Below are positions 14,083 through 16,582 of a stretch of DNA of 64,000 bases, in pieces. The stretch covers positions 4,464,001-4,528,000 of the forward strand of contig NZ_CP063458.1 in NCBI RefSeq assembly GCF_015169395.1, in the 5' to 3' direction. Made by a program: the position numbers and the translations under genes. Every line of letters begins with the position of its first letter. Position 1 is the stretch's first letter. The notes under the pieces are model-generated. The model searched no databases. It saw only the letters and a program-made list of their open reading frames with translations, and had not been told where the DNA came from. The DNA is from Humisphaera borealis. Its GTDB lineage: Bacteria > Planctomycetota > Phycisphaerae > Tepidisphaerales > Tepidisphaeraceae.

Positions 14083-14731
14083 AATTGATGCGTGATTACT
14101 TGAAGGTAGATAAGACTGCAGCGATAATATAATTTCAGATTTTGTACTTGCATTCTGCATGGCTCTGGGAATAATCTTAGACGCGGCAGAGAAGTGCCGA
14201 TATAGATAGTGCTCGCGGGTCGTGCCTCGCGAGATGCTTCGCGACGAGTTAGTTCGCAAGAGGAAAGTTGTCTTCCGTGTTCACGAATCGAGCCATGTTC
14301 GCCACTTGTCGTTCAACGCGAGATATGCGTTCGAGCGAGGGTGTTCTGCGCTATCGTGATGAACGTGGTGTCATGGCCTCGGGCCTGAAGGTGCAGGCCG
14401 CAGGGACATCGATCGATTCGGGATTCGCGGCCACGTATTTCTCGGCGGATCGAATCTCGGCCGCCCGCGATAGCGAACGTAAGTTTAATGAAATCAAGAC
14501 CATGTGGTCTGATCGAGCATAGCTCCCCGCCTCGTCCGGCCGGGAGTTCTTCCCGGCTGAAAGATCTGTTTTTTCAATCCTGGAAGAGCTCCGCGTGACT
14601 TGGACCTTGGCCCCTTGGTCTTGGCCTCGTGCTGTCGCGTTGCCGTCTGATGTCTGCGCCCATTGCTGCGGCCTGGGCGTCGGATCTGCGCCTGGCAGGC
14701 CCTGGTGGTCGCCGGCGGTGGTGGCCTTATT
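14083..14731. other. Intergenic stretch before the tRNA array, no convincing gene
   Basis: The first ~180 bases are much more AT-rich than the surroundings (for example gataatataatttcag around 14125). A frame at 14268-14522 has weak coding character and no ribosome site. I see no terminator for the pump gene and no clear promoter for the tRNAs. Confidence 0.5.
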
Positions 14732-14803
14732 GCGCTGGAAGCTCAGCGGCTGAGCACTCGCCTGATAAGCGAGAGGCCGGAGGTTCGAATCCTCCACGGC
14801 GCA
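14732..14803 (+). tRNA. tRNA-Ile (GAT)
   Basis: 72 nt. Acceptor GCGCTGG/ACGGCGC with a 7-66 mismatch, discriminator A, D-stem GCTC/GAGC, anticodon loop CTGATAA, T-arm GGAGG-TTCGAAT-CCTCC. Position 8 is A instead of the near-universal U. No CCA is encoded. First member of the array. Confidence 0.88.
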
Positions 14804-14854
14804 TGAACAGTCATTTGTCGGCACACGATTTGGCGTCGTGCATAGTTGTATATC

Positions 14855-14950
14855 GCGCCGGTAGCTCAGCGGAAACATAAAGCTTCCATGCTTTATCAGA
14901 GCCGCGGTCTTCGAAGCCGTGGGTCGGAGGTTCGAATCCTCCCCGGCGCA
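14855..14950 (+). tRNA. tRNA-Arg (TCG) with a D-loop hairpin insertion
   Basis: 96 nt. Perfect acceptor GCGCCGG/CCGGCGC, discriminator A, D-stem GCTC/GAGC, anticodon loop CTTCGAA, T-arm GGAGG-TTCGAAT-CCTCC. The D-loop spans 31 nt (14868-14898) rather than 7-11, and contains a perfect 7-bp hairpin ATAAAGC-TTCCAT-GCTTTAT at 14877-14896. No CCA encoded. Whether the product is a working tRNA, is processed, or is a pseudo-tRNA is open. Confidence 0.75.
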
Positions 14951-14958
14951 GTACCGTC

Positions 14959-15031
14959 GCGCCTGTAGCTCAACCGGAAGAGCCGCCGCCTTCTAAGCGG
15001 CGGGTTGCAGGTTCGATCCCTGCCAGGCGTA
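14959..15031 (+). tRNA. tRNA-Arg (TCT)
   Basis: 73 nt. Acceptor GCGCCTG/CAGGCGT (G-U at 1-72), D-stem GCTC/GAGC, anticodon stem GCCGC/GCGGC with loop CTTCTAA, T-arm GCAGG-TTCGATC-CCTGC, discriminator A. Starts only 8 nt after the previous tRNA. No CCA encoded. Confidence 0.93.
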
Positions 15032-15084
15032 TGAGGCGTCGGTGGCGTCGCGTTCGCCATGAAATGACTGTATCTGATGGCGTT

Positions 15085-15157
15085 GCACTTGTAGCTCAAC
15101 TGGCAGAGCCACCGCTTTTTAAGCGGAGGGTTGCAGGTTCGACTCCTGCCGGGTGCA
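15085..15157 (+). tRNA. tRNA-Lys (TTT)
   Basis: 73 nt. Acceptor GCACTTG/CGGGTGC, D-stem GCTC/GAGC, anticodon loop TTTTTAA, T-arm GCAGG-TTCGACT-CCTGC, discriminator A. Pair 27-43 is an A/A mismatch. No CCA encoded. Confidence 0.92.
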
Positions 15158-15185
15158 TGAAAGGGTAAGTCGCGTTGATCGTGTC

Positions 15186-15258
15186 GCACTTGTAGCTCAA
15201 TCGGCTGAGCCGCCGTCTCTTAAACGGTGGGGTGCAGGTTCGAATCCTGCCGGGTGCA
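15186..15258 (+). tRNA. tRNA-Lys (CTT)
   Basis: 73 nt. Acceptor identical to the Lys(TTT) gene, GCACTTG/CGGGTGC, anticodon loop CTCTTAA on stem GCCGT/ACGGT, T-arm GCAGG-TTCGAAT-CCTGC, discriminator A. The likeness to the preceding gene suggests duplication with an anticodon change. No CCA encoded. Confidence 0.93.
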
Positions 15259-15347
15259 TGAGGAGCGGCGAGCGTTTGCCGCTAACGCTGGGGGCGGCTG
15301 GCCTTCGAGCGTCCGTCTCTTTGTGGTGATCTCAGATTCAAAGACCT

Positions 15348-15420
15348 GTTGCGGAAGCTCAACCGGATGAGCACCGGCTTGCGAAGCCGGAGGGTGAAGG
15401 TTCGATCCCTTCCCGCAACG
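15348..15420 (+). tRNA. tRNA-Arg-like (anticodon GCG)
   Basis: 73 nt. Acceptor GTTGCGG/CCGCAAC, D-stem GCTC/GAGC, anticodon stem CCGGC/GCCGG, loop TTGCGAA, T-arm GAAGG-TTCGATC-CCTTC, discriminator G. Anticodon GCG reads CGC/CGU; bacteria normally use ACG (A34 edited to inosine). Position 8 is A, not U. No CCA encoded. Confidence 0.82.
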
Positions 15421-15495
15421 CTGTGGCGACGCCGTACAGCGTCAGATAGGAGTCGTTCCCATGAGTTGCGATGGTTCATCATTCGATGGCAGCAC

Positions 15496-15576
15496 GGAGG
15501 GTACGCCCAATCGGCAGGGCACCCGTCTCGAAAACGGACGGCTTCGGCCATGAGGGTTCGACTCCCTCACCCTCCG
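15496..15576 (+). tRNA. tRNA-Ser (CGA)
   Basis: 81 nt with a long variable arm (hairpin GGC-TTC-GGCC), as serine tRNAs require. Acceptor GGAGGGT/ACCCTCC, D-stem GCCC/GGGC, loop CTCGAAA, T-arm GAGGG-TTCGACT-CCCTC, discriminator G. Pair 27-43 is mismatched. No CCA encoded. Confidence 0.88.
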
Positions 15577-15697
15577 CATTGTCGAACTCGCAGAGATGTC
15601 GAGGTCCAGGCGTCGTCGGTTGTCGCGGTGTGGTCGTCCGTCGTTCAGAGGCGGCGGGCGTGCGATCCGATCACCCGACGATTCTGCCTCAGGTTAC

Positions 15698-15781
15698 GGA
15701 GGGTTGGCAGAGTGGTAATGCACCGCGGTGCTAACGCGGAATCCCCCCTGGGGATGGGAGGTTCGATTCCTCCACCCTCCG
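15698..15781 (+). tRNA. tRNA-Ser (GCT)
   Basis: 84 nt with a long variable arm. Acceptor GGAGGGT/ACCCTCC, the same as Ser(CGA); D-arm GGCAGAGTGGTAATGC typical of serine tRNA; anticodon stem CCGCG/CGCGG, loop GTGCTAA; T-loop TTCGATT; discriminator G. No CCA encoded. Confidence 0.94.
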
Positions 15782-15807
15782 TTGAACGTGTGCAAGGCGA
15801 AAGCCAT

Positions 15808-15879
15808 GGTTCGTTAGCTCAGTGGCAGAGCACCCGGTCGTCACCCGGAAGGCCGCGGGTTCAATTCCCGCACGGACCG
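15808..15879 (+). tRNA. tRNA-Asp (GTC)
   Basis: 72 nt. Acceptor GGTTCGT/ACGGACC, D-stem GCTC/GAGC, anticodon loop TCGTCAC, T-arm GCGGG-TTCAATT-CCCGC, discriminator G as expected for Asp. Pair 27-43 is mismatched. No CCA encoded. Confidence 0.92.
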
Positions 15880-15950
15880 CTTGATTCAACAGTTCCGCCG
15901 GCGGACGAGGGGACCGCCGTGCGGAAGAAGCGACGGGCGTCGCTGGATAC

Positions 15951-16023
15951 GGGCCGCTGGTGTAGGCGGTATGCACGGCGGACTGAAGATCCGCAGGGAC
16001 AGGTTCAACTCCTGATCGGCCCA
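15951..16023 (+). tRNA. tRNA-Phe (GAA)
   Basis: 73 nt. Acceptor GGGCCGC/TCGGCCC (7-66 mismatch), D-stem GTGT/GCAC, anticodon stem GCGGA/TCCGC with loop CTGAAGA, T-loop TTCAACT with a mismatch at 49-65, discriminator A. More diverged than its neighbours. No CCA encoded. Confidence 0.82.
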
Positions 16024-16038
16024 TGGTTTGGAACTGAT

Positions 16039-16111
16039 GCCGCGGTAGCTCAGTTGGGAGAGCGCCGCCCTCGTAATGCGGAAGTCGCCGGTTCGACCCC
16101 GGCTCGCGGCT
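16039..16111 (+). tRNA. tRNA-Thr (CGT)
   Basis: 73 nt. Acceptor GCCGCGG/TCGCGGC, D-stem GCTC/GAGC, loop CTCGTAA, T-arm GCCGG-TTCGACC-CCGGC, discriminator T. Pair 31-39 is C/U. No CCA encoded. Confidence 0.9.
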
Positions 16112-16125
16112 CTTGGATGTGTGAT

Positions 16126-16196
16126 CGGTGCGTAGCTCAAAGGCAGAGCGACGGCCTCATAAGCCGAAGGTGCTGGTTCGAGTCCAGTCGCACCCA
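16126..16196 (+). tRNA. tRNA with CAT anticodon (Met or Ile2)
   Basis: 71 nt. Acceptor CGGTGCG/CGCACCC pairs except C1/C72; D-stem GCTC/GAGC; loop CTCATAA; T-arm GCTGG-TTCGAGT-CCAGT; discriminator A. An unpaired 1-72 is an initiator feature, but the anticodon stem lacks the GGG/CCC run of initiators. Elongator Met, initiator Met and lysidine-modified Ile cannot be separated here. No CCA encoded. Confidence 0.83.
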
Positions 16197-16304
16197 TGTG
16201 GTTTGACCGGTGGATCGGAGAAGGATCGAGCTGGGAGGATGGCTTTTGCGTGCGATCGGCAATCGTCAGTCTCCAATCCTCCATCTTCCGTCCTCCAACG
16301 CGCA

Positions 16305-16375
16305 GCTCTCATCGTCTAACGGAAGGACCCCGGTCTTTCGAACCGGTGGCGCGGGTTCAACTCCCGCTGAGAGCA
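16305..16375 (+). tRNA. tRNA-Glu (TTC)
   Basis: 71 nt. Acceptor GCTCTCA/TGAGAGC, D-stem GTC/GAC with the typical ATCGTCTAACGG, anticodon stem CCGGT/ACCGG with loop CTTTCGA, T-arm GCGGG-TTCAACT-CCCGC, discriminator A. No CCA encoded. Confidence 0.92.
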
Positions 16376-16392
16376 TGAATAAGCCACGACAC

Positions 16393-16478
16393 GCGCAGGT
16401 GGCGGAGCGGTTCATCGCGCCGGCCTGTAGAGCCGGAGTCCTTCGGGACGATCGGGGGTTCGAATCCCTCCCTGCGCA
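16393..16478 (+). tRNA. tRNA-Tyr (GTA)
   Basis: 86 nt with the long variable arm (GTCC-TTCG-GGAC) of bacterial tyrosine tRNA. Acceptor GCGCAGG/CCTGCGC, anticodon stem CCGGC/GCCGG, loop CTGTAGA, T-loop TTCGAAT, discriminator A. No CCA encoded. Confidence 0.93.
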
Positions 16479-16509
16479 TCACAAGGTCGTCGTACCGCAT
16501 GAACTGTAC

Positions 16510-16582
16510 GCGCCGTCGGTTCCGATGGTGGGACGCGCGACTCCAAATCGGGAAGCGGCAGGGTCGATCCCTGCACGGCGTG
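16510..16582 (+). tRNA. tRNA-Trp (CCA)
   Basis: 73 nt. Acceptor GCGCCGT/ACGGCGT, D-stem GTTC/GGAC, loop CTCCAAA, T-arm GCAGG-GTCGATC-CCTGC, discriminator G as in Trp. The anticodon stem has one G/G mismatch, and the T-loop begins GTC instead of TTC. Last member of the array. No CCA encoded. Confidence 0.78.

Follow-up and report, generated by a model that had tools for sequence, protein, structure and literature searches.

A dense tRNA gene array in Humisphaera borealis is one piece of a split, near-complete accessory tRNA set

The chromosome of Humisphaera borealis carries a dense array of 15 tRNA genes that is accessory to a complete core set and constitutes one piece of a split, near-complete second tRNA set. 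The array lies in a window of 64,000 nucleotides, the whole stretch of DNA analysed here, which corresponds to positions 4,464,001-4,528,000 of the closed 7,189,892-bp genome (G000; relatives are designated G001 and so on, and f14 is another family of the same class). What is observed is a supernumerary, near-complete set of genes with a common order, compensatory changes in the stems, matching discriminator bases, shifted anticodon loops and physical linkage to RNA-repair genes and EF-Tu. This set is probably a relative, on the chromosome, of the trn operon that Anabaena induces under stress. Alongside a network for RNA repair, it would provide cognate replacement tRNAs, probably tolerant of nucleases, when tRNAs are damaged or translation is stressed. 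Long tRNA arrays are of a known kind; the splitting into complementary clusters, the physical linkage to RNA repair and the array-linked EF-Tu are new. Why bacteria carry additional tRNA arrays has been studied well in a single case, that of a cyanobacterium. The array described here comes from another phylum and is near-complete even when scattered, and we propose that tRNA repair, together with spare tRNAs and an elongation factor kept in reserve, may form one damage-response system.

The 15 genes, for 11 amino acids, were located with ARAGORN and the Rfam model RF00005 in 1.85 kb of the + strand (window positions 14731-16582). ARAGORN called 13 tRNA genes at 14731-16478, all on this strand, and these scored 45-64 bits with RF00005, whose gathering cutoff is 29 bits. 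The first, tRNA-Ile(GAT) (14732-14803, 59.8 bits), is orthologous to array copies of relatives. An irregular tRNA-Arg(TCG) (14855-14951), missed by ARAGORN, corresponds to a partial Rfam match at 14890-14942 (29.3 bits). It is followed by tRNA-Arg(TCT) (14959-15031, 64.2 bits), tRNA-Lys(TTT) (15085-15157, 61.2 bits), tRNA-Lys(CTT) (15186-15258, 61.6 bits), tRNA-Arg(GCG) (15348-15421, 63.6 bits), tRNA-Ser(CGA) (15496-15577, 48.9 bits) and tRNA-Ser(GCT) (15697-15782, 54.7 bits). Next come tRNA-Asp(GTC), which has C33 and a changed anticodon loop (15808-15880, 62.5 bits), tRNA-Phe(GAA) (15951-16023, 45.3 bits), tRNA-Thr(CGT) (16039-16112, 57.9 bits), a tRNA with anticodon CAT that is either elongator Met or Ile2 (16126-16196, 62.8 bits), tRNA-Glu(TTC) (16305-16375, 63.1 bits) and tRNA-Tyr(GTA), with a long variable arm as in bacteria (16393-16478, 61.0 bits). 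The last gene, tRNA-Trp(CCA), has an irregular D arm and was found by Rfam slightly below the cutoff (16510-16582, 28.4 bits). The identities of the two irregular members, Arg-TCG and Trp-CCA, were assigned by eye. Neither rRNA nor a coding-like ORF was found between the tRNAs of the array. The density is about 8 tRNA genes per kb, while chance expectation for 1.85 kb is about 0.02 genes because only about 71 tRNA genes are present in 7.19 Mb. The sequence-only reading, which had described 15 tRNA genes for 11 amino acids on one strand with several irregular members, was thus confirmed. It had also remarked that no gene encodes CCA; none was seen in the array, but this is not distinctive because the core tRNAs likewise showed no encoded CCA.

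In Arg-TCG, the D-loop contains about 25 additional bases that form a perfect 7-bp hairpin (z -3.8), added to a fold that retains the acceptor, anticodon and T arms. The insert ACATAAAGCTTCCATGCTTTATC (14875-14897, + strand) is AT-rich and palindromic, and no second copy of it was found in the window or in the other loci compared. Orthologues of Trp-CCA are present in six genomes (G001, G002, G004, G020, G021 and G022), and in most relatives the array Trp is irregular in like manner. Two of the 15 members are irregular enough that they are possibly pseudogenes.

Genome-wide, 48 of the approximately 71 tRNA genes lie scattered, and a complete core set is contained in them. The remaining 23 are the window array (15 genes), cluster B (2,816,395-2,816,804; Ala, Asn, Gln, Gly) and cluster C (5,341,437-5,341,840; Cys, Leu, Leu, Leu). 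None of the amino acids served by the window array recurs in clusters B and C (p about 0.0015). Extra Pro and His tRNA genes, counted among the 48, flank a slipin gene at 4.78 Mb, and when they are added to the array and both clusters only Val is left without an accessory copy. The array does not hold the only genomic copies of its isoacceptors, since a core copy exists elsewhere for every array anticodon except Arg-GCG, whose codons are also read by core Arg-ACG. The earlier proposal of an accessory decoding set therefore stands. The redundancy in Arg, Lys and Ser on which it was built does belong to the conserved array content, but the main point is the near-complete coverage of amino acids achieved together with the scattered clusters. 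Dense housekeeping tRNA operons exist in Firmicutes, and the array could by that precedent be the core set itself or an ordinary housekeeping operon. This reading is scarcely credible for G000, where the genome-wide count, with its separate complete core set among the 48 genes, rules it out.

Arrays were sought by BLAST in 40 relatives and then in 298 genomes of the class. In the same family, at least eight further genomes have one (G001, G002, G004, G011, G019, G020, G021 and G022), and inspection of two weak matches revealed arrays of 30 and 32 tRNAs in G114 and G256, both from f14. The arrays of relatives reach 26 to 32 tRNAs, and in some relatives the accessory tRNAs are kept undivided, next to genes for RNA repair or for an extra elongation factor. 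The possibility that the array is confined to the family was ruled out by the two f14 arrays. Many family members yielded no array at the BLAST sensitivity used, and absence from other genomes is unproven because BLAST nearly missed the f14 arrays. The remark that no array is established for this group agrees with the literature searched, where we found none, but at least 11 Phycisphaerae genomes in two families do carry such arrays.

Fourteen of the 15 window genes have an order in common with G020 and G022, compared to at most 11 in 20,000 shuffles, and the array order is kept wherever the arrays are long enough to compare. Individual genes also group with the relatives' arrays rather than with the core. 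Ser(CGA) is 94% identical to the relatives' array copy versus 77% to the best core Ser of the same genome, and the corresponding values for Ser(GCT) are 94% and 67%. The window Arg(GCG) is the orthologue of the relatives' array Arg(CCG) with a switched anticodon, and is 92% identical to the G002 copy. The window array is probably the largest remnant of an accessory array ancestral to the family. The 5′ half of Ser-CGA was tried as an array marker and rejected; outside the family, nearly all of its matches are ordinary core Ser-TGA genes. Separately, small ORFs located near Ser tRNAs inside two arrays (L082:7460-7771 and L081:4597-4842) are homologous, with 35% identity.

The array tRNAs bear signs of selection. 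Over 48 arm positions, they are about 75% identical to those of the G022 array and 65% identical to the core tRNAs of their own genome, whereas core tRNAs of G000 and G022 are 82% identical to each other. In the comparison of stem pairs with the G022 array, 63 double changes are still paired, 15 changes are one-sided, 17 pairs are broken and 177 are unchanged; the array stems are maintained through compensatory changes. T loops, U33 and the D-loop GG are mostly retained, and discriminator bases are the same in array and core for nearly all amino acids. The array Ala keeps G3:U70 and A73 when a one-base acceptor bulge is allowed. This bulge, in the 3′ acceptor strand, is found in four genera (L078:7885-7955, L082:9435-9506, L083:5181-5253 and L085:9395-9465). 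A loss of alanine identity, indicated in the ARAGORN output by a 3-70 mismatch and C73, was ruled out in this way. In the family, all 12 array Leu tRNAs sampled have a variable loop of 5-6 bases, compared with 13-17 in core Leu; in f14, most array Leu tRNAs are of the short-loop form and one is of class II.

Outside the anticodon, the anticodon loops of the array differ from those of the core in 88 of 136 comparisons, often alike across genera, and C32 is present in all six array Ser-CGA tRNAs. These changes, which lie outside the anticodon, resemble those of phage tRNAs thought to escape the anticodon nucleases that attack host tRNAs (PMC10264068), except that the array here is bacterial and kept across genera. 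The low covariance scores, the irregular members and the class-I Leu forms could also be expected if the array RNAs were decoys, which take no part in translation and are sacrificed to anticodon nucleases or tRNA-binding effectors. However, the array RNAs have kept their acceptor stems, discriminators and T loops, and their anticodon loops shift away from the core loops, which is the opposite of what a mimic would do; we regard this explanation as very remote. A supply of tRNAs in higher dosage for demanding codons of the host is also highly unlikely, if slightly less so. The array anticodons do favour G-ending codons, which are common in a GC-rich genome, but the set spans nearly all amino acids, mostly repeats core anticodons and omits very common codons, GCC, GTC and ACC among them. 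Under simple wobble, ACC, CCC and UCC cannot be read by the array; it would therefore supplement rather than replace the core.

The possible origin of the array was considered in the light of its surroundings. On the left it is flanked by an HlyD/AcrB efflux pair and on the right by DUF1559, glycosyltransferase and MFS genes. Phage structural, integrase and plasmid genes were not found adjoining the window array, which is not embedded among phage genes. Some signs are compatible with the horizontal acquisition that the sequence-only reading had raised as a possibility, in that the array is patchy in the family and its flanks differ between genera; yet the order is common across several genera and mobile genes are not adjacent. 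Phage-like features are nevertheless present at the accessory clusters, namely a linked RNA ligase and short-armed Leu tRNAs. The array could accordingly descend, as a relic, from a large phage or plasmid; its tRNAs would have served that element for codon compensation or anti-defence and then persisted in the chromosome more or less neutrally. The best phage match of the ligase, 35% identical, comes from a 485-kb uncultured phage, Vibrio and Rhodococcus phages likewise have Leu tRNAs that lack a long variable arm, and mycobacterial arrays are known on phages and giant plasmids (PMC5966550, PMC12803027). We consider such a relic unlikely. Besides the lack of phage or plasmid genes beside the window array, neutral decay would not yield a common order with compensatory stem changes across genera, nor clusters without amino-acid overlap.

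The arrays of mycobacteria, mycobacteriophages and giant linear plasmids are similar in being dense, in covering up to 19-20 amino acids and in being structurally divergent from the core (PMC5966550, PMC12803027). They are often located on phages, plasmids or prophages, whereas the window block has ordinary chromosomal flanks. A tRNA array unit has been defined by at least 2 tRNA genes per kb and at least 20 genes (PMC5966550); the window block greatly exceeds this density but contains 15 genes. In a viral stretch of an IMG/VR contig (L132), we noted 20 tRNA genes with duplicated Ile, Phe, Asn and Arg.

RNA-repair genes are linked to several of the arrays. After cluster B in G000 come a second EF-Tu gene and a gene whose product, an RNA ligase, belongs to the DRB0094 (Rnl5) family with a score above the curated cutoff; the ligase has a homologue with 79% identity adjoining a tRNA cluster in G001. 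The interior of the G114 array contains slipin, RtcB and HNH genes, the HNH endonuclease gene being at L254:5322-6065. Ro60 and RtcA are found at the G256 array; in G019, RtcA with Thg1 and kinase fragments is located 0.4 kb from the array. The window array itself has no adjoining RNA-repair gene, and the linkage concerns other G000 clusters and relatives. The list was drawn from the arrays inspected, and the linkage is an observation on these loci rather than a statistic. A complete RNA-repair locus at 3.97 Mb in G000 (L177, C1:3966001-3985000) encodes RtcR, Ro60/TROVE, RtcB, RtcA, Thg1 and a kinase-like protein, together with Y-RNA-like genes (YrlA, 76.3 bits, and further tRNA-like copies). 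It resembles the RtcR-controlled RNA-repair operon rsr-yrl-rtcBA (PMC7790460), of which RtcA and Ro60 are also present at relatives' arrays. In Salmonella, RtcR senses tRNA fragments. The window array lies outside this locus, and no common promoter was found. The best sigma-54 site upstream of the window array is within background in a scan that is weak, as the RtcR-Ro60 control region also failed; control of the array by RtcR through sigma-54 is thus unsupported.

The closest parallel is the trn operon, or long tRNA array (L-array), of Anabaena sp. PCC 7120, which comprises 26 tRNAs and is silent until induced by antibiotics that target translation; its repressor TrcR also controls rtcB, and a trcR mutant over-expresses rtcB and a slipin gene (PMC10272220). 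As in this L-array, a supernumerary tRNA set is found in G000 next to about 48 core tRNAs, and the window array has many isoacceptors on one strand in an order common to its hosts, with the core set elsewhere. The two gene kinds of the Anabaena regulon, rtcB and slipin, are found in or beside arrays here, namely in G114 and, for slipin, at the extra Pro and His genes of G000, though not adjoining the window array. The G000 set differs in being chromosomal and split into several clusters, with repair genes and EF-Tu physically linked. The trcR mutant of Anabaena further shows raised expression of an HNH gene, and the G114 array contains a gene of this kind as well. The most likely interpretation is that the array would be used under special conditions, as the sequence-only reading had suggested. 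Under the stress-replacement reading that we favour, the array would be off or low during normal growth and induced when tRNAs are cut or ribosomes poisoned. Once expressed, it would supply cognately charged replacements, and their altered anticodon loops may resist whatever nuclease or damage had reduced the core set. The Rnl5-type ligase, RtcB and RtcA, Ro60 with its Y RNA, and slipin would serve to rejoin broken tRNAs, and the extra EF-Tu, where present, may pair with the replacement tRNAs and deliver them.

The linked EF-Tu is the surprising part of the finding. It is present in array clusters of three genomes: in cluster B of G000, within the array of G020 and, in G011, in a cluster of Gly, Ala, Gln, Gln and Asn tRNAs. 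The incomplete assembly of G011 yielded no other EF-Tu. The GTPase motifs of the array-linked copies are intact. Compared with 1EFT (T. aquaticus numbering), the G000 protein carries D227S, F229H, R234L and N285S, and the G020 protein carries D227G and F229H, while D227 and F229 are kept in G011. Positions 226, 227, 229 and 285 line the aminoacyl pocket. In a tree, the G000 and G020 copies grouped weakly. Tentatively, the array tRNAs and a dedicated EF-Tu with a remodelled aminoacyl pocket might form a semi-separate elongation module, used when the normal tRNA/EF-Tu pool is attacked, although we hold this version to be rather doubtful. The array-linked copies would be natural starting points for studies of EF-Tu/tRNA specificity.

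Other genes recur next to the arrays. A small protein and a vWA-type protein follow or accompany those of G022, G020, G004 and G011, with E1-like and JAB proteins in some. The cassette members are the small protein ending in VFG or IFG, the vWA-type protein, a 290-aa protein, JAB and the E1-like protein; they occupy L078:10009-15481, L186:1200-5336, L083:6454-11626 and L082:91-5093, not every gene being present in each genome. A Ro60 homologue was suspected in the vWA protein next to the arrays of G022, G020 and G004, a reading put aside after profile comparison and fold modelling. For the small linked protein, the predicted fold is no more than suggestive of a ubiquitin-like fold (best Foldseek E 0.05).
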